The notes beneath the pieces were generated by a model. It worked only from the letters and a program-made list of their open reading frames with translations. It did no database searches and was not told the DNA's origin. Below, one piece after another: positions 23,857 to 33,639 of a DNA stretch of 46,605 bases. Made by a program: the position numbers and the translations under genes. The first letter of the stretch is position 1. Each line of letters begins with the position of its first letter. The DNA comes from an uncultured Bacteroidales bacterium (GTDB taxonomy: Bacteria > Bacteroidota > Bacteroidia > Bacteroidales > Paludibacteraceae): contig CACZOA010000083.1 in the NCBI GenBank assembly GCA_902782665.1, positions 1 through 46,605 of the forward strand. Reading direction: 5' to 3'.

Positions 23857-26136
23857 ATGAAGAAAACACTACTATCTATCGTTGCTTCAGTTGCAACTTT
23901 TTTCGGTGCCACACTCCAATCCTTGGGTGTCTCCGTATCTAATCCGCTCATCTACTCAGATGTGCCAGACCCTTCCGTCATCCGTGATGGAAACAAATAT
24001 TATATGGTGAGCACAACTATGCACTGTGCTCCTGGTGTCCCTATCATGATGTCGGAAGATTTGTCGAATTGGCGTACCGTCAACTACGCTTATCAGACTC
24101 TTGACAATGGCGACAACCAAAGTCTTAACGGCGGCAAACATGCTTACGGAAAGGGTTCGTGGGCATCTTCGCTTCGTAAGCATAAAGGCAAATACTATAT
24201 TCTTACTCCATCGTATACTACTGGAAAAACTCATCTTTTTTCAACTGATGATATCGAAAACGGAACTTGGGATGAGGTCCGTCTTCCTTTCTATCACGAC
24301 CCTTCTCTATTCTTCGACGACGATGATCGTGCTTACATCATCTTTGGTAGCGGTGAATTCAAAATGGTAGAGCTCAACAGCGATCTAAAAGGTGTGAAAA
24401 ATGGAGAGACAAAACTGAATATTCCTATCGACCAAACAACCGGAACAAACGGTTATATCGTTAAATGTGAGGGTGCTCACATGGAGAAAGTGGATGGCAA
24501 ATATTATCTTTTCGCCATCTCTTGGCCGAATGGCAAATGCCGTACCGAATTGGTCTTCAGATCTAGCAGTCTGACTGGAAACTATGAGGGCAAGATTGCT
24601 TTGCAGGAGAACGGTGTGGCTCAGGGAGGTATTTTCGACACTCCAGAAGGCAAGTGGTATGCGATGTTGTTCCGCGACTCAGGTGGTGTGGGACGTATTC
24701 CTTGGCTTATCCCTGTCACTTGGCGGAACGGTTGGCCAACAATGGGTAATCAGGCAGCTCGTTCCGTCGACTTGCCAAACGCAGTGGAACCAGCTTACAG
24801 CATGGCGACTTGTGATGATTTCGAATCAACTACACTGCCTCTTGAATGGCAGTGGAACCATAATCCTGACGATGCTCATTGGTCATTGTCAGCACGTCCA
24901 GGATATTTGCGTATCACAACTGGACGTACAGACAAAAGTCTTTACTGGGCTAAAAACACATTGACACAAAAGACTTTCGGACCTAAATGTTCAGGTCGTG
25001 TGGCTCTTGATGTGAAAGGTATGAAAGACGGTGATGTGGCAGGACTTGTCGCACTTCAAGATTCATTCGGTTTTGTAGGTGTGGAGAAACAGTGGGGCAA
25101 ACTAAACATCGTCCAGAACAAAACTGTGGTCAGAAATGCATCAGTACCGTTTGAAGGTGAAACTGTATATTTGAGAATCGATTTTGATTTCACAAAAGAC
25201 AGAGCTTATTTCTATTATAGCACAGACAATCAGAAATGGAATGCCATCGGAAAAGACATTCCTCTTCCATACACTCTTGGTATGTTTGCAGGATATAAAT
25301 TCGGATTGTTCAATTACGCAACGTCGCAAGCAGGAGGATATGCAGATTTTGATTGGTTCAAAGTTGGAGAAGATGTATACGACGAGATTTATCTTGGACA
25401 GATCAAAGAGCCCGAGGTAGTAGGTCCATACAATGAAGTGGCAGCCAATATTCCCGGCGTAGTGGAGGCAGAAAACTATAACACTGGTGGAAACAACGTC
25501 TCATACTACGATAAAGACAGAAGCAATCGTGGTGGTGAGTATAGAAAAGACGGTGTAGACGTTTACGCTTCAGATGAAGCTAACGGTTTTGCGATAGGAT
25601 ATTGTGAAGAAGAGGAGTGGATGAACTACACAGTCAATGTCGCAGAAGAGGGAGAGTACACAGTCTCGGTAAGAGCAAGTGAAGAGGGAGAAGTCGAGGC
25701 TGGCACCGTCCACGCATCTCTTTCTAATGAGGCAGGCGACGCAATTGACATAGAGGTTGGCAGCACAGGATCATGGGATGTGTATGACGAATACGTCCAG
25801 AAGAACAGGATTTCCCTTCCTGCTGGTGAATCAACAATCAAATTGACAATCAAGAAATCATGGGTCAACATCGATCGCCTGACTTTCACCAAATATGATC
25901 CTTCAGATGTGGATCTCACAGAGGCTGACAAAATCGTGGTGGTAACATCACCGTCTTCAATCAAGATCATCGGTATTGAGGGCGATTTCAAGGCAGAAAT
26001 AATCAACGCAGAAGGAAAAACAGTGTGTGTGTCAGACAAGACAGAGATTTCCACATCAGGAATCACATCCGGTGTCTACACAATCAGAATCACAACTGAC
26101 AGCAACGTTGTCTGCAAAAAATTGACTTTGAAATAA
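23857..26136 (+). CDS. Secreted GH43 glycosidase with CBM6 and T9SS-type C-terminus
   Basis: 759 aa. A signal peptide covers residues about 1-26. The GH43 five-bladed propeller domain (about 27-310) has the three family acids: base D38 (VPDPSVIRD), D148 (FYHDPSLFF) and acid E205 (VKCEGAHM). The segment HCAPGVPIMMSEDLSNW is typical of beta-xylosidase/arabinofuranosidase-like members. A beta-sandwich of the xylosidase C-terminal type follows (about 318-520), then a CBM6 (about 525-690, PGVVEAENYNTGG ... WMNYTVNV) and a tail (about 690-759) with the look of a T9SS sorting domain (SGVYTIRITTDSNVVCKKL). It probably cleaves xylan or arabinan side chains at the cell surface; the exact substrate cannot be read off. 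No SusC/SusD pair lies beside it. Confidence 0.88.
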   Translation: MKKTLLSIVASVATFFGATLQSLGVSVSNPLIYSDVPDPSVIRDGNKYYMVSTTMHCAPGVPIMMSEDLSNWRTVNYAYQTLDNGDNQSLNGGKHAYGKGSWASSLRKHKGKYYILTPSYTTGKTHLFSTDDIENGTWDEVRLPFYHDPSLFFDDDDRAYIIFGSGEFKMVELNSDLKGVKNGETKLNIPIDQTTGTNGYIVKCEGAHMEKVDGKYYLFAISWPNGKCRTELVFRSSSLTGNYEGKIALQENGVAQGGIFDTPEGKWYAMLFRDSGGVGRIPWLIPVTWRNGWPTMGNQAARSVDLPNAVEPAYSMATCDDFESTTLPLEWQWNHNPDDAHWSLSARPGYLRITTGRTDKSLYWAKNTLTQKTFGPKCSGRVALDVKGMKDGDVAGLVALQDSFGFVGVEKQWGKLNIVQNKTVVRNASVPFEGETVYLRIDFDFTKDRAYFYYSTDNQKWNAIGKDIPLPYTLGMFAGYKFGLFNYATSQAGGYADFDWFKVGEDVYDEIYLGQIKEPEVVGPYNEVAANIPGVVEAENYNTGGNNVSYYDKDRSNRGGEYRKDGVDVYASDEANGFAIGYCEEEEWMNYTVNVAEEGEYTVSVRASEEGEVEAGTVHASLSNEAGDAIDIEVGSTGSWDVYDEYVQKNRISLPAGESTIKLTIKKSWVNIDRLTFTKYDPSDVDLTEADKIVVVTSPSSIKIIGIEGDFKAEIINAEGKTVCVSDKTEISTSGITSGVYTIRITTDSNVVCKKLTLK

Positions 26137-27203: not shown

Positions 27204-27683
27204 TCACTTTTTTATAAACTTAACCTGTGTTGAATCCACTTTCAACACATATAGACCTTGAGCCAAGCCCTCAACATCTATTTCCAAACCAACTTGCTTT
27301 TTCACAACCACACCGTTCATATCGATTATCTCGACCTGTGAATTTTCATCAATTCCAGTAAGATAAATCATCTTCTCAACAGGGTTGGGATATACAGCAA
27401 TCTGCAACGGAGCAGCTTTCTTTTCATCCACATTCGTGATGAATCTGTCAAATTTAATGGATTCATAACCCTTTAATGTGTCATTTCCTGTTATGATGTT
27501 GAACGTCGGGAGTCTTGAATCTACCGGACTCCTCAAAACAGGCTTAATACGCAAATCTTCCGAAATCACAAAAAAATCTGAATTACCATCAGATCTAATT
27601 CCTTTGACTTTCCATCCATTATCCTCAGCTGACACTGACAACGAGAATAATAACGCCAAAACGCTTAGAGTAAAATTTTTCAT
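27204..27683 (-). CDS. Small secreted protein consisting mostly of a T9SS sorting domain
   Basis: 159 aa. The signal peptide covers residues 1-19 (LLFSLSVSA). Residues 20-90 are a short segment with a GYESIKF phrase resembling the N-terminal segment of its neighbour. Residues about 93-159 are a type A T9SS sorting domain (VYPNPVEKMIYL ... QGLYVLKV ... KFIKK). There is hardly room for a cargo domain. It may be a small surface subunit that partners the FISUMP protein encoded 32 bp downstream. The function is unknown. Confidence 0.75.
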   Translation of the reverse strand: MKNFTLSVLALLFSLSVSAEDNGWKVKGIRSDGNSDFFVISEDLRIKPVLRSPVDSRLPTFNIITGNDTLKGYESIKFDRFITNVDEKKAAPLQIAVYPNPVEKMIYLTGIDENSQVEIIDMNGVVVKKQVGLEIDVEGLAQGLYVLKVDSTQVKFIKK

Positions 27684-27860: not shown

Positions 27861-27940
27861 CTATCTGTGTGATAATTTCCTTTAATAAATTTAATCTGCT
27901 TCTAAGATAATCCTTGTCGAGACGACTACTTTTTCAACAT

Positions 27941-29815
27941 TTACTCCACCGTGATATCAGATCTCTTCGATTTCACTGAATAAGAGAATTTCAGTTCCTT
28001 CTTTTCTCCTGGTTTCAGATTAAGTTTCCAAGTAAGTTTACCCTCCTTCTCGTCTACCTCGGCTCCACCATTATCAACCAAAACGACCTTGATATCATCC
28101 ACTGTAGAGACAGGGAACTGATCCTCCACCGTCACCTTAACAGACTCCGTCTTATTGTTTTTCACTGTGATCTTCCATTCACGCTCAATCTTGTCGGATG
28201 TCTTAATCAGATTCTTCGACGAGTATGTACGCATATCCTTTCTGTCGACAGCAAGATCCTTATCTTTTCCGATTGACAGATTCAACGTGTCTTCTGTCTG
28301 ACGGGCATTGATGAAGCTCTCGCCCATATACATATTGTTCAAGAATAGTTTGACAGTACCGTCGAGCAGATCCAAACGCTTCCAATTAGGAATAGATGCC
28401 ACCAAATAGACATCCTTCGACAATTTAGGCACCGCATAATAGTTATACTCCGCATCGACAGACATATCCTTCACCACAACCTCATGATCAGCACCGTCGT
28501 CAGGGATAGTATTCTTTCCTCCAATTGTTGCGACGGAATTGCGGATGACCATCTGCGGTATATTCGATTCCATATCACTGCTCATGGCTGACCTTGCAAG
28601 GCTCACTCTGTGCTGTCCGATATAATTTACAAAATGCTGATCGATATTAGAATCGCTGACCTTTGATGATCCGCTCTCCATACGCACGTTTCTGATCATT
28701 ACGTTCTGACCTTTTGCCTTGCAGGATGTAGAATGGTATCCAGAATAGCTGAAATTGACATCATTGTAGACAGGGACCAGCAACTCATAGTAACCATTCT
28801 CATCCGACTGTGTCTTGCGATCATCGTCGTCACAAGTGATCAAAGCCCCCTTCAACGGGCCTCTCCAATCACGCACCACACCCATCACCTTCACATATGG
28901 ATTACCATTGTCATTAGTATGGGTTGGTCTTTCATAATATCTGCCGTCAGGGACGACGTATCTGCCCAATTCCGGTTTCTCATTGCTCACACTCGGATCA
29001 TTCTGGGAAAGTTTCACCTGTACATTATTCCACTTCTCTTTTGTGGCCTGGCTTACGTATGCCTTCTGCACCAAATGAAGTTTGGTGTCATTCCTTGCGA
29101 TACGAGCCTCGTAGAATGGCATCCACGCCGCATTCTTCACAAAATAGTTGATCTCCAAATCACAATTTGAGGCAGTTGGCGACTCCAGTTTGACCAGAAG
29201 AAAACTCATTGGCTCCATCTGTTTGTCATACAACAGATTCACCTTCTGCTCATTCAACGTGAGTTCATCCTGATACTTCTTCATCTGCTTCTGGTAGCCA
29301 TACTGCAGTTTGATGATCTCATTCAAGTCGTTACGCACGTATGATGCCACGCCCTGCAATGTAGGAGCAGTAAAACCATTGTCACCACCAATATTATTGC
29401 TTTTCAACACTAGGTCACGCTCCCTGTCAAGCACCTCGCTCTTACCCTGCAACATATCAATTGAATCACGCAATACATTTGCTCTTTTCGTCAATGTTGC
29501 CACCTCATTGCCTATCTGTTTCTGTCCGGGCACCTCCACGTCATAACTAATTGAGGAAAGTACCACATTTCCTCCCTTCACACCGACCTGCACGGAATTC
29601 TGTTCCAACAACGGAGTCAGCAACGGGATTTTCACCTCCGTCACCCCACTCTTGACATTCACTTTAGCAGTACGCGTCACCATGGCACCAGTGGCATACA
29701 CCATCACCTCTTTGATTTTCGACTGCGTCTCCACAGGGGCAGCAGATGCTGTCATTATGCCTAAAGAGAGGCAACCTGCCAATATAGTTTGAAATTTCAT
29801 ATATATCGTTTTCAT
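27941..29815 (-). CDS. MuiA-like DUF4140/DUF4139 protein with one inserted regulatory-like domain
   Basis: 624 aa. A signal peptide covers residues about 1-26. The DUF4140 N-terminal domain (about 33-130, VMVYATGAMVTRTAKV) is followed by a coiled region to about 200. The DUF4139 domain is split into about 205-300 (FVKNAAWMPFYEARI) and about 400-624. The insert (about 308-378, VMGVVRDWRGPLKGALITC) is a carboxypeptidase-regulatory-like beta sandwich of the kind found at the N-termini of SusC proteins. The family was named for a mucoidy inhibitor; its molecular role is unsettled. The gene starts 3 bp after its paralogue, so the two form one operon. A second in-frame start lies at 29800. Confidence 0.83.
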   Translation of the reverse strand: MKTIYMKFQTILAGCLSLGIMTASAAPVETQSKIKEVMVYATGAMVTRTAKVNVKSGVTEVKIPLLTPLLEQNSVQVGVKGGNVVLSSISYDVEVPGQKQIGNEVATLTKRANVLRDSIDMLQGKSEVLDRERDLVLKSNNIGGDNGFTAPTLQGVASYVRNDLNEIIKLQYGYQKQMKKYQDELTLNEQKVNLLYDKQMEPMSFLLVKLESPTASNCDLEINYFVKNAAWMPFYEARIARNDTKLHLVQKAYVSQATKEKWNNVQVKLSQNDPSVSNEKPELGRYVVPDGRYYERPTHTNDNGNPYVKVMGVVRDWRGPLKGALITCDDDDRKTQSDENGYYELLVPVYNDVNFSYSGYHSTSCKAKGQNVMIRNVRMESGSSKVSDSNIDQHFVNYIGQHRVSLARSAMSSDMESNIPQMVIRNSVATIGGKNTIPDDGADHEVVVKDMSVDAEYNYYAVPKLSKDVYLVASIPNWKRLDLLDGTVKLFLNNMYMGESFINARQTEDTLNLSIGKDKDLAVDRKDMRTYSSKNLIKTSDKIEREWKITVKNNKTESVKVTVEDQFPVSTVDDIKVVLVDNGGAEVDEKEGKLTWKLNLKPGEKKELKFSYSVKSKRSDITVE

Positions 29816-29818
29816 AGT

Positions 29819-32227
29819 TTATAAATCGTCATCCTCCATCAGTTTCTCAAAAAGATCCTCATCTTTTACAGTCACCTCATAGTTTACATTCAGTTCACGT
29901 TTCTCTCCCGGAGCAAGATGAAGATTCCACTTTAATCTGCCCTCATTCTGAGTCACAACCGCACCACTCGATTCCAGCAGATTAACCTTCACATCCGATT
30001 TTGTCGAAACAGGAATCTGATCCTCAACAACTACGTCCACAGCTGTCTCCTTGTTGTTCTTCACCACAATCAACCAGTTACGTGTCACCTTCTTGGATGT
30101 CTTCAAAAGATTATTACGTTCTTTAGTAGCCTTCAAAGAACGTTCCACACCTATGTTTTTCTCAACACCAACCGAAAAATGCAGAGTGTCTTGAATCTCT
30201 ATCGGTGTCCAATAAGAGTCTCCGACGTAGGTATTGTCCAAGAAGACTCGTAGTTTACCCTTCTGCAGCTCATAGTCGCGCCATTTTGGCACCTCTGCAA
30301 GCATATAGACATTTGGTGTGATCTTTGGAGCAGCATAATAGCTGAACTTTGCAGGAATGCTCAGTTTGCTCAACGTCGCCTCATGTTCTGATCCGTCCGA
30401 CGGGATTGAGTTAAGTGTAGTGGCTTCTGCCGTGTAATCCTGCAGTTTGGAGAATTTAGACAAATATAATTCTGAACCTACAGCACCTTTTTTTGTGATG
30501 ATAAAAACTACTCCACCGCTTGCTCGTGATCCATAAATAGATGTTGCTGAAGCATCTTTCAAGACCTCCATAGAAAGGATATCATCTGGATTGATTGAAG
30601 CCAACGGATTTGAAGTGCCATCACCCATTGGCACTCCGTCGACAACATACAATGGTTCGGCACCAGACAACGAAGGTACTCCACGCACACGTACAGAAGA
30701 AGCTTCTCCCGGTTGACCAGATGAAGATGTCACTTTAACACCAGACACTCGACCTGCCAAAGCCTGGTCAACTGATGTGGCAACTCTCTTAACAACATTC
30801 TTTTGGATTCCATATCCAACCTCAACAGCAATTTCGTCCAACATCTCTTCACTCAAAGTCACATTCAAAATAGAAGATGTCTTATTCGTGATTTTTCTAG
30901 TTTGAGTCTCATATCCAGCATACGAGAATTCCAACACAGCACCCAGCGGCACAACAATCTCATAGTTTCCATCCATATCAGTGTTGGTTTCATTAGTTGT
31001 ACCTTTTACAACCACATTCGCAAAAGGAAGAGGTTCCTTTGCATCTCTCACCACACCTTTTATTCTCACATTATTTCCATAGATGGCGGAAGCATCCTCG
31101 TTCATAACGACATTCATCATCACGACATTGTCGCCACGTACACTCTTGTCCACTGTCTTATGGCTGGAATGAGTGAATTTCAAAATGCTGTTTTCAGGAA
31201 CCAATATCTCGTAGAAACCAGAAGCGTCAGTTTGTGCTGAGACATTTGCGCTTAAGCAATTCACCAAAACACCGTCAATACTGCCTCGATTATCACGCAC
31301 CGTACCCATCACCTTAACCATCTTCCTTTCCGTCGATGCAGAAGAAGATCCGCTGTAGCTCTTAGGAAGAGTGTAGCGTTTCAGTTCAGGACGTGCATTG
31401 TTGCTGGATGGATTAGTTGTGGTGACGGTCATCTTCACGTCGTTCCAATCCTCTTTGGTTTTTTGAAGCACCATCACTTTTTTTGTCACATCAATCGATG
31501 GATTGTTCTCCGAGATACGCAGTTCAAAGAAAGGAGTCCACTTCGCCTGATCCACGACATAAGAGAAATCAAGGATTGTCTCAGCCGACGATTTTGCGAC
31601 CAAAGTGACGTAAAGCGCAGCCTTAGGGATCATTGCCCTCTCATCCAAAAGTTTGATCTGCTGACTAAGGTTCCGCTTCTCCAAATCCAAACGTTTCTGG
31701 CATTGGTCATAGCCAAGTTGGAGGTCGACAATCTCAGACAGATCCTTACGTAGGAAAGCAGCGACGTCGCTCAACCTATTTGCGTCGAAACCTTTATCGC
31801 CACCGATATTGTTATTGTCCAACAAGACAATACGTTCTTGATCCAACACATTTTTGTAGGAATGTATCAAATCGATAGAATCGGTGAGAATCGTCGTCCT
31901 CTTCACGAGCGAATCATTAATCTTCGCAACGGAATCACGGTTAGGCATCTCCATCTCCACGTCTACCTTACCCAAAGAGATATCGGCATTGGTCACCCCG
32001 ACCTGAATCGATTTCTGATTGAACATAGGGCTGAGCATAGGCACCTTCACCACCGTCACACCGGCAGGTATTTTCACATGTGCTTTACGGCTCACCAAAG
32101 CCCCCTGTTTATATACAGTCACCTTCTCGATCGTCGACTTGACGGTCAGTGTGTCCGCAAAAAGGTTCTGCGTCACAAAACAGGAGACAATTAAAAGCAA
32201 AAGGGTAATTATTTGTTTTTTGAGCAT
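29819..32227 (-). CDS. MuiA-like DUF4140/DUF4139 protein with an inserted SusC-type TonB plug domain
   Basis: 802 aa. A signal peptide covers residues 1-24. DUF4140 covers about 30-130 and DUF4139 part one about 200-300 (VVDQAKWTPFFELRI). Two carboxypeptidase-regulatory-like domains follow (about 302-376 and 386-460, the second PLPFANVVVKGT). Next comes a complete TonB receptor plug (about 475-580: LAGRVSGVKVTSSSGQPGEA, RVRGVPSL, PLYVVDGVP, LKDASATSIYGSRASGG). The frame then returns to DUF4139 (about 590-785), aligning with the paralogue downstream. There is no beta barrel. The frame is unbroken, so this is a true nested fusion. The plug may dock on an outer-membrane barrel or on TonB; that is inference. 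Confidence 0.88.
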   Translation of the reverse strand: MLKKQIITLLLLIVSCFVTQNLFADTLTVKSTIEKVTVYKQGALVSRKAHVKIPAGVTVVKVPMLSPMFNQKSIQVGVTNADISLGKVDVEMEMPNRDSVAKINDSLVKRTTILTDSIDLIHSYKNVLDQERIVLLDNNNIGGDKGFDANRLSDVAAFLRKDLSEIVDLQLGYDQCQKRLDLEKRNLSQQIKLLDERAMIPKAALYVTLVAKSSAETILDFSYVVDQAKWTPFFELRISENNPSIDVTKKVMVLQKTKEDWNDVKMTVTTTNPSSNNARPELKRYTLPKSYSGSSSASTERKMVKVMGTVRDNRGSIDGVLVNCLSANVSAQTDASGFYEILVPENSILKFTHSSHKTVDKSVRGDNVVMMNVVMNEDASAIYGNNVRIKGVVRDAKEPLPFANVVVKGTTNETNTDMDGNYEIVVPLGAVLEFSYAGYETQTRKITNKTSSILNVTLSEEMLDEIAVEVGYGIQKNVVKRVATSVDQALAGRVSGVKVTSSSGQPGEASSVRVRGVPSLSGAEPLYVVDGVPMGDGTSNPLASINPDDILSMEVLKDASATSIYGSRASGGVVFIITKKGAVGSELYLSKFSKLQDYTAEATTLNSIPSDGSEHEATLSKLSIPAKFSYYAAPKITPNVYMLAEVPKWRDYELQKGKLRVFLDNTYVGDSYWTPIEIQDTLHFSVGVEKNIGVERSLKATKERNNLLKTSKKVTRNWLIVVKNNKETAVDVVVEDQIPVSTKSDVKVNLLESSGAVVTQNEGRLKWNLHLAPGEKRELNVNYEVTVKDEDLFEKLMEDDDL

Positions 32228-32250
32228 ATATTTTGAATTAGTTCGACACG

Positions 32251-32258
32251 CAAATATA
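32251..32258 (-). promoter_or_regulatory. -7 promoter box (TATATTTG) of the MuiA-like pair
   Basis: TATATTTG followed by CG on the minus strand lies 23 bases before the ATG at 32227. No clear TTTG box is present. Confidence 0.6.
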
Positions 32259-32379
32259 ATAAAATAAAGAGCGGGGTTACGTAAAAACGTATTTATTTTT
32301 CATCAAACAGACAGATAGAGATTCTTATCGAATGAAAATCAACGACATCATGTATACCCTATTGATATATGTACATAAA

Positions 32380-32418
32380 AAAACGGATGTGCATACCAAT
32401 GAGATGCACATCCGTTTT
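32380..32418 (-). terminator. Terminator after the phospholipase C-like gene
   Basis: A 15-bp perfect stem AAAACGGATGTGCAT/ATGCACATCCGTTTT (32380-32394 with 32404-32418) with a 9-nt loop. On the minus strand the 3' arm runs into TTTTTTT. It lies downstream of the REP-like element. Confidence 0.9.
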
Positions 32419-32426
32419 ATTCATAT

Positions 32427-32470
32427 GAGACGCACGTCCGTTCCTGAGACGCACGTCCGTGCGTCTCTAC
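32427..32470 (-). repeat. REP-like element: GTAG foot, palindrome, trailing half copy (AGACGCACG type)
   Basis: On the minus strand GTAG (32470-32467) leads into GAGACGCACG-GA-CGTGCGTCTC, a perfect 10-bp stem (32467-32446). A second right half, ACGGACGTGCGTCTC (32441-32427), follows. The foot begins 3 bases after the stop codon of the gene at 32474. It is nearly identical in plan to the element at 19386-19437. Confidence 0.85.
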
Positions 32471-32473
32471 AAG

Positions 32474-33436
32474 TTATTCTTTCAACCAGTTTCTGTATTT
32501 GATCCACACATGTAGCCAGATACGTGCGATGGAATCAATTGCGTCGGAGAAAATCATCTTATTGTAAGCGTCAAACTTCTGACCCCATTCAGTAAGTTCT
32601 GTGAATTCCGTGAAATTCTGATTTGTCGAGAAACTTCCTGGGACCAAGAATCTAGAAAACAAGTATGAATATTGCGACACTCCACTCATATAATCCCAAG
32701 TGCTGGAGTTTCCACTACCCCATCCATGGACATACTGACGTGTTGTGATCTCATCCTTTACATCTTGCAAAAACTGAGTTTCTTTCAATGGCAGAGGATA
32801 TCCGTCTGGATCGTAAAAGAAACGGTTGTTATCAGTGTCGATCTTATAAGATTTCTTTATCTGGTCTTCCCACTTCTTTTCAATTACCCCATGCATACCT
32901 TTTTCATCGCTGAACGGACGGTTGTCACAATGGAACGGCATGTGGCAGTCGGCTACATAATGGCTCAGGATAAAGAAACGCATTGCGATATGATTGTTGG
33001 TAGTTGTGATCGGGCAACCACGGTCTTCCTTCTGCAGCATCTTGAAATTGTCGACGATGCTGTGTGCGATAGACTCGCAACGGTCTGCACAATTACCCTT
33101 GACAATAGTATAAGATTTTCCGTAAAGAGGCGACAACTTCTTCATCATAGAACTGATGGAATGAGTGCCAGGCATGTTTCGGAACGACGTGTAATTGCCA
33201 TTCGGTTCATATTTGACAATATGGCTGGTGCTCATATCTTTGAAGACATCGTCAGGATACCATGCTCCCTCAATCACAAAATCCCTGTAGTTTCTAAACC
33301 ATTTCCACAAAGTTTTAGCATGTTGACGAACATCATCCGACACACCTTTCACAACTGCATCATCAGTAGTAGTAGCGATCACTTCAAGTCTCTTTATAGC
33401 CATAAAGGCCAACCATGCATGTGAGTATTTTTTCAT
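32474..33436 (-). CDS. Zinc-dependent phospholipase C/S1-P1 nuclease-like protein
   Basis: 320 aa. All-helical metal-site pattern of the phospholipase C/P1 nuclease superfamily: H6 (SHAWLAF), W59-Y-P-D62, H72, H159-x3-D163 (LSHYVADCHMPFHCD) with H165 and H169, and H182-x3-E186. The family cleaves phosphodiester bonds using three zinc ions. Unusually, no signal peptide precedes the first histidine; the mature-type N-terminus sits right at the start. A cytosolic place or non-classical export is possible, or the catalytic use differs. It is a single gene with its own -7 box and a downstream REP-like element and terminator. Confidence 0.72.
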   Translation of the reverse strand: MKKYSHAWLAFMAIKRLEVIATTTDDAVVKGVSDDVRQHAKTLWKWFRNYRDFVIEGAWYPDDVFKDMSTSHIVKYEPNGNYTSFRNMPGTHSISSMMKKLSPLYGKSYTIVKGNCADRCESIAHSIVDNFKMLQKEDRGCPITTTNNHIAMRFFILSHYVADCHMPFHCDNRPFSDEKGMHGVIEKKWEDQIKKSYKIDTDNNRFFYDPDGYPLPLKETQFLQDVKDEITTRQYVHGWGSGNSSTWDYMSGVSQYSYLFSRFLVPGSFSTNQNFTEFTELTEWGQKFDAYNKMIFSDAIDSIARIWLHVWIKYRNWLKE

Positions 33437-33462
33437 ATTCGATTATTCTGGATCAATTTTCA

Positions 33463-33470
33463 CAAAGATA
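33463..33470 (-). promoter_or_regulatory. -7 promoter box (TATCTTTG) of the phospholipase C-like gene
   Basis: TATCTTTG on the minus strand lies 26 bases before the ATG at 33436. No clear TTTG box is seen upstream. Confidence 0.65.
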
Positions 33471-33639
33471 CGCAAAATAAATAAATGTTATCGGGTTCTC
33501 GAATATTTAAGGAAAAAGGTAATTACGACATCCCATGATTTAAACGACTTATAACCTAAAATCATGCTAAACATCTCTGATACATACATCATTTATTTTC
33601 CTATGTGTCTATCAATTATAGCATACGTGATTTGATATA

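Follow-up and report, generated by a model that had tools for sequence, protein, structure and literature searches.

Plug domains are taught as gates inside barrels. SusC/RagA transporters (TIGR04056, PF07715, PF13715) carry an NTE domain, a Ton box, a plug and a 31-residue signature in that order, and in BT1763 the Ton box, DEVVVTG, is placed after the NTE (PMC7782687). The isolated FepA plug behaved as unfolded, according to a review (PMC11658791). NTE-like domains also occur outside transporters: in PMC12204202, a CP domain of this kind is implicated in TonB interaction and discussed in the T9SS-linked lipoprotein PorE, where it is proposed to hint at TolA/TonB-like force transduction; PorE has other host domains, and the passages on it mention no plug. 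The MuiA family (TIGR02231) is built differently, with DUF4140 followed by DUF4139, and in Pseudomonas MuiA (mucoidy inhibitor) is stated to have effects on swarming and biofilm (PMC7603352).

Here, we analyze a 46,605-nucleotide stretch of DNA (hereafter the window) from an uncultured Bacteroidales bacterium of the family Paludibacteraceae, and describe a MuiA protein that differs from its family in having two NTE-like domains and a SusC-type plug inserted in its DUF4139 loop. The open-licence PMC literature (subscription journals lay outside the search) yielded no paper on DUF4139 together with a plug domain, in agreement with an earlier sequence-only reading of this DNA that knew of no functional description. 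DUF4139 alone appeared there only with papers unrelated by title, and neither plug domains with macroglobulin and SusC nor TonB boxes with macroglobulin returned any paper in the same literature. Domain-architecture databases probably list such proteins, and we do not claim that the architecture as such is unseen.

A SusC-type plug within DUF4139

The gene encoding this protein, the longer of two tandem muiA paralogues (Table 1), runs on the minus strand from 32227 down to 29819 with zero internal stops; the plus strand of the same stretch has many stops. The whole protein scores 224.1 bits against TIGR02231 (curated cut-off 112.6) and has the DUF4140-then-DUF4139 order in Pfam, which places it in the MuiA family. 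DUF4139 spans residues 219–786 (Pfam, 1.4e-43) and encloses the NTE domains and the plug, and the whole-genome search splits its profile at the insert into the two parts listed. CarbopepD_reg_2 matches two stretches, the better of them at 4.1e-24, and the first NTE domain has a counterpart in the short paralogue by alignment. The Plug match reaches 66.9 bits (2.6e-18; cut-off 23.9) and the SusC signature TIGR04057 52 bits (cut-off 46.2).

Table 1. Features of the muiA pair in the window (positions are those of the window)
Feature	Residues	Positions	Strand	Basis
muiA-plug gene, long paralogue, 802 aa		29819..32227	minus	ORF translation and Pfam/NCBIfam
Signal-like N-terminal segment	1-24	32156..32227	minus	read by eye from sequence
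DUF4140 (PF13600)	36-132	31832..32122	minus	Pfam, 1e-10
Two long helices	97-140 and 149-197	31637..31939	minus	structure model
DUF4139 first part (profile 1-74)	about 219-304	31316..31573	minus	whole-genome profile search
NTE/CarbopepD_reg domain 1	about 303-380	31088..31321	minus	limits by alignment and model
NTE/CarbopepD_reg domain 2, SusC type	389-467	30827..31063	minus	Pfam and structure match
Ton-box-like DEIAV (context LDEIAVEVGYG)	464-468	30824..30838	minus	alignment, by eye
Plug (PF07715; profile 17-107)	478-573	30509..30796	minus	Pfam
Exchanged-tract core, 99% nt identical to G002	501-540	30608..30727	minus	sliding identity map
SusC/RagA 31-aa signature (TIGR04057)	549-579	30491..30583	minus	NCBIfam
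DUF4139 second part (profile 85-202)		29870..30421	minus	whole-genome profile search
Short tandem paralogue, 624 aa, DUF4140 + DUF4139 + one NTE-like domain		27941..29815	minus	Pfam

The insert has its parts in the order of a SusC transporter and differs in lacking the barrel. Against TIGR04056 the protein scores 227.8 bits, under the cut-off of 368.25, with its best stretch covering profile positions 2–210 of 981, and there is no barrel family among its Pfam matches; DUF4139 resumes past the plug. The sequence-only reading had described an unbroken 802-residue frame that re-enters DUF4139, without naming the strand, and a SusC-type plug that lacks a barrel. Both descriptions hold in the translation and in the Pfam and NCBIfam scans, and the three SusC-type motifs that it quoted are present in the frame. 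Its description of the plug as complete does not quite hold: the match starts only at position 17 of the 107-position profile, and in comparison with the resident SusC and with G006 about 14 residues of the plug's first part are missing between the Ton-box region and the core (G and L numbers are our handles for genomes and loci).

The full-length structure model has a mean pLDDT of 67.9, with block means of 21–28 for residues 461–520 and 51–60 for residues 521–580; in a model of the insert alone the NTE lies mostly at 79–93, the first half of the plug at 22–36 and the second half at 50–61. The underlying alignments were shallow, with 15 sequences for the full length and 7 for the insert, so that a poorly modelled plug is no proof of disorder. 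Foldseek placed the SusC NTE 9hfj at the top for the insert model (TM 0.87 by target length) and also returned RagA and SusC chains over 57–58 columns at 2.3–2.9 Å and 50–61% identity with a weak E of about 0.01, columns that presumably correspond to the second half of the plug. In the N-terminal part, the two long helices may form a coiled-coil hairpin.

Spread of plug-bearing MuiA and of other barrel-less plugs

An assembly join or frameshift artefact is excluded by the recurrence of this layout in separately assembled genomes: 24 genomes of the host family, the window's included, carry a plug-bearing MuiA copy beside a short plug-less paralogue (the copy of G008 is a contig-end fragment with the plug end only, and the short neighbour in G377 is cut by a contig end). 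Eight of the 24 loci also exist under separate public names, and several relatives of the host are rumen or gut MAGs. These copies were drawn from a DUF4139 search of the host family in which 104 of 358 genomes matched and copies with a long or split DUF4139 were fetched. A plug HMM that we built matches 23 of the 24 (all but the G008 fragment) and, in addition, G057 and three genomes of the family f47, which shares the host's class and which we take to be Flavobacteriaceae.

DUF4139 occurs in 69 of 299 f47 genomes. Among 43 DUF4139 loci (40 fetched and 3 earlier), 38 matched the plug, namely 37 from f47 and L186 from another family, a proportion that is no rate because the f47 loci were picked for long or split DUF4139 spans; the five plug-less loci have shorter spans. 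Ten of 30 loci from a search of relatives (L004–L033) carry a plug, nine of them without an NTE-like domain by eye, the tenth (L008) being a short frame. Plugs were further matched in 5 of 27 middle-span DUF4139 loci of a phylum sample, one as a first-half remnant only, in 5 of 10 further loci of the host's own family, and in none of 3 short-span loci. Several copies with only an NTE end in a Ton box followed by remnants such as 'LxGRVAGVxIRG' (by eye). The same DUF4139 loop therefore holds nothing, an NTE, an NTE and Ton box, an NTE, Ton box and plug, or a plug alone, and the plug graft in MuiA is genuine, widespread in the phylum and plastic. The combination of DUF4139 and plug in one chain, proposed earlier as a matter for a database search, thus recurs with whole, half or remnant plugs, and the window is no singular oddity. 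In two f47 loci, L182 (G905) and L183 (G1066), the muiA frame stops within or near the plug.

Barrel-less plugs of SusC type also occur in other non-transporter envelope proteins, at other sites within them. Macroglobulin-type proteins of genera g27 and g4 carry one at ten loci (L133, L134 and L137–L144; genomes G382, G378, G060, G375, G383, G374, G384, G373, G377 and G011). These ten plugs form one group in the plug tree, one of the ten proteins matches the loose Ton-box pattern described below, and in the two that were Pfam-scanned (L133 and L144) the plug lies just before the A2M domain. Besides its MuiA, G057 has plugs in a macroglobulin (L229), in a YfbK/vWA protein with NTE and plug (L227) and in a 414-residue protein, each after a Ton-like stretch. 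The last two genes (L227:2370-4724 for YfbK/vWA and L227:299-1540) lie 0.8 kb apart and share a nearly identical Ton-like stretch and plug, and the 414-residue protein is without an obvious signal segment.

M56/BlaR1-type proteins of f47 hold the second half of the plug only. The three that were Pfam-scanned (L220, L222 and L223) include two above the Plug cut-off and one below; the half-plug is C-terminal in two, and two copies lie further in for one. L220, L222, L223, L225 and L226 each show an M56/BlaR1-like protein with a half-plug of about 50 residues at its end or inside, in L222 as two in tandem. Macroglobulins from G003 and G006, and a DUF2135 protein from G007, have an NTE and Ton box but no plug. 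A single 565-residue frame of G701 (L224:1011-2705) joins an NTE, a plug and a SusD-like stretch, with the barrel absent. A match on contig C11 was rejected as a further plug host: at this locus (L102, G000 contig 11) three adjoining genes share a similar Cys-rich N-terminus, and the two that were scanned are TonB_C proteins with two TonB_C stretches each and no plug.

Ton box, exchange and constraint

The window's LDEIAVEVGYG, which has an A where V is usual, compares with DEIVVAGYG in G006 and resembles the SusC forms LDDVVVEVGYG (G383) and MDEVVVEVGYG (G376 and G371). Across 35 plug-bearing MuiA rows of f47 the five Ton-box columns have a mean consensus of 0.86. Every other region in the comparison scores lower: DUF4139-C 0.66, the NTE-like domain 0.65, the second half of the plug 0.62 and its first half 0.30 (at an occupancy of 0.66). 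Among 44 plug-less copies, 29 have a Ton-box motif, itself defined with examples already in view, behind the NTE, against a mean of 0.5 and at most 3 in shuffles; the 44 were taken as NTE-bearing by eye and size, with 24 of 40 and 12 of 40 rows of two batches left out. The motif in these copies suggests TonB docking.

Counts in the window's own clade depend on how the motif is defined, as the patterns are crude, post hoc and chosen after seeing examples. The loose pattern matched 8 of 23 MuiA rows and 15 of 31 real SusC rows, and the strict pattern, the one applied to the plug-less copies, 3 of 23 and 8 of 31. Ton boxes at the SusC loci L103–L130 vary (LEELVVTGYG, LKEVTVTGDYG and MDEVVVEVGYG among others), more than the textbook DEVVVxGYG, so that the loose pattern misses many SusC rows. 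We considered that the Ton box might be eroded in most of the clade and rejected this, because the pattern used misses half of the real SusC rows as well. Read by eye, 16 of the 23 copies have a Ton-like stretch, often like that of SusC proteins of the same group, G012 is ambiguous, and six (G007, G060, G372, G373, G383 and G384) have none. The earlier suggestion of a TonB docking module gains indirect support from these copies and from the wide retention of the Ton box after the NTE, and is weakened by the six without one. Elsewhere, plug forms that have no NTE-like domain keep the second half, mostly without a Ton box, so that the half-plug may serve some separate purpose.

The insert matches the N-terminus of SusC. 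The best PDB matches for residues 382–586 are SusC homologues, and an alignment to the resident SusC covers the NTE, Ton box and plug with 80% identity. In a tree of 67 plugs, built on few columns and with many weakly supported forks, MuiA rows are interleaved with SusC rows of the same genera. Constraining the 23 MuiA plugs to one clade cost 102.6 log units and was rejected (p-AU 0.00114) in a test run after the tree was already known and with six long or unlike rows removed beforehand. Grouping the MuiA plugs of f47 as a single clade could not be rejected (p 0.094), in a set whose row SusC_L203 is actually the G057 macroglobulin (in the same place as in L229).

Third codon positions separate shared DNA from shared protein. 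Over 644 MuiA-by-SusC plug comparisons, the high pairs included, third-position identity averaged 0.382 (sd 0.079); the MuiA plugs of G007 and G361 reach 0.77 and 0.69 with their own SusC, and those of G384 and G060 reach 0.79 and 0.77 with a SusC of G383. In these four copies the likeness to SusC reflects DNA exchange rather than convergence. Most other MuiA plugs lie nearer the background, and a recent copy from the window's own SusC is not supported: third-position identity is only 0.52, and the nearest plug found is that of the G002 MuiA.

A sliding map points to exchange among MuiA genes as well. Against G006 the flanks of the window's gene are mostly 92–100% identical and the first part of the plug 68%; against G002 the MuiA flanks are 62–90% identical and residues 501–540, the core of the exchanged tract, 99% (Table 1). 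The corresponding dS between window and G002 is 0.15 in the plug core and 1.4–1.7 in the flanks, and the reverse holds between G001 and G002 (0.07 in the N-terminal part, 0.15 in DUF4139-C and 1.08 in the plug core). A second mosaic stretch at residues 221–280 (31388–31567) shares 82–84% identity with G006 and G003, between which there is no difference in this stretch, with neighbouring windows of the map at 94–97%; exchange is therefore not confined to the plug. Together these patterns show repeated exchange of DNA, both between MuiA and SusC plugs and from one MuiA gene to another.

Constraint on the plug was compared by Nei-Gojobori counts on hand-picked near pairs, some of which share a row and some of which may hide exchange. 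On this basis pooled omega is 0.48 (0.36–0.63) for MuiA plugs, 0.58 (0.37–0.89) for A2M plugs and 0.073 (0.06–0.09) for SusC plugs, and 0.116 (0.08–0.16) for the second part of DUF4139 in six of the seven MuiA pairs. Indel blocks number 15 in 7 MuiA pairs, 8 in 4 A2M pairs and 0 in 9 SusC pairs. By these counts the MuiA plug without a barrel is weakly constrained and has often changed in length without loss of frame, and an omega below 1 means that it is not free of selection. The open frame itself does not speak for the plug, since DUF4139 continues downstream of it.

Possible roles of the insert and its neighbourhood

We favor, at a probability of about 60%, a reading in which an N-terminal SusC piece (NTE domain, Ton box and plug) was placed by recombination in an insertion-tolerant loop of DUF4139, with the NTE and Ton box as a docking tag. 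Transfer would have run from SusC to MuiA. A plug without a barrel would gate nothing; the NTE and Ton box, the part of the loop that selection seems most often to keep, would dock TonB or another partner of the NTE, and the plug would be a renewable appendage beside them. Docking through NTE and Ton box is likely the retained function wherever the two are retained. For the window's own protein TonB docking is extrapolated from the wider family, and its sequence allows such docking rather than proving it. The high omega and many indels, the presence in this loop of plugs with parts deleted or reduced to remnants, and the repeated exchange would suit a pure passenger, drawn into a tolerant loop by homology between the MuiA NTE-like domain and the SusC NTE, with a functionless plug whose frame is open only because the second half of DUF4139 lies downstream. 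We hold this to be unlikely: pooled omega stays below 1 across its bootstrap interval, the Ton box and second plug half persist across many f47 genera, the Ton box is also found in other plug-less copies, and plugs that lack an NTE, as in G057 and others, show that NTE homology is not the sole route.

That several Bacteroidota envelope proteins share the half-plug (PLYxVDG ... LKDxxATxxYGSRxxxGVVxITTK, a consensus read by eye) as an independent protein-interaction domain is, in our estimate, distinctly improbable. In its favour, where MuiA proteins of other lineages carry the half-plug they mostly have neither a Ton box nor a complete first half, M56/BlaR1-type proteins carry it C-terminally or close to that end, and the Foldseek matches to RagA/SusC presumably run through the second half; the E-value of those matches, a pLDDT of only 50–61, an omega of about 0.5 in the window's clade and a Plug score below cut-off in one of the three scanned M56 proteins count against it. 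The sequence-only reading had also imagined a plug that acts from the periplasm on an outer-membrane receptor (SusC barrel, SusD) by occluding, regulating or mimicking it, which we consider very improbable. MuiA plugs are similar to the SusC plugs found in the same genus group, as mimicry would require, yet in four copies shared DNA explains the likeness, several lineages have lost loops and the first half, and the plug is not constrained in the manner of a fitted one (omega 0.48 versus 0.07 in SusC), which leaves gating, occlusion and regulation unsupported.

If the docking-tag reading holds, it may extend beyond MuiA. We propose, tentatively and at less than even odds, a class of Bacteroidota TonB clients other than transporters, in which MuiA, alpha-2-macroglobulin and vWA proteins with a SusC-derived NTE and/or Ton box (the plug being optional) would be pulled on or positioned by TonB, and in which exchange of the module with resident SusC in some lineages would keep client and transporter tags alike. 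Across many genera of the phylum a different protein houses the N-terminal portion of a SusC transporter, apparently exchanged like a cassette, which raises the questions of whether TonB acts on non-transporters in Bacteroidota and whether a plug or half-plug can work free-standing. In such genomes, counts of PF07715 or of the SusC signature overcount TonB-dependent transporters.

The short paralogue lies 3 bp downstream of the muiA-plug gene. Its NTE-like domain scores 30.9 bits against PF13715, just below the cut-off of 32.2; Pfam finds no Plug match in its 624 residues, and by eye the window's copy has no Ton box. An LAGC lipobox-like start is frequent in the short paralogue and its orthologues and less regular in the long one (by eye), and the two members of the pair might differ in anchoring. 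No long near-identical repeats were reported in 27900–33500, where the listed repeat families are of 20–30 nt, and invertible or repeat-driven switching at the locus was rejected on this ground. A promoter scan found 28 candidates against 16.8 expected and adds nothing firm. Just past the muiA pair, a small protein (27204–27683) and a GH43 enzyme (23857–26136) carry Por_Secre_tail type IX sorting tails.
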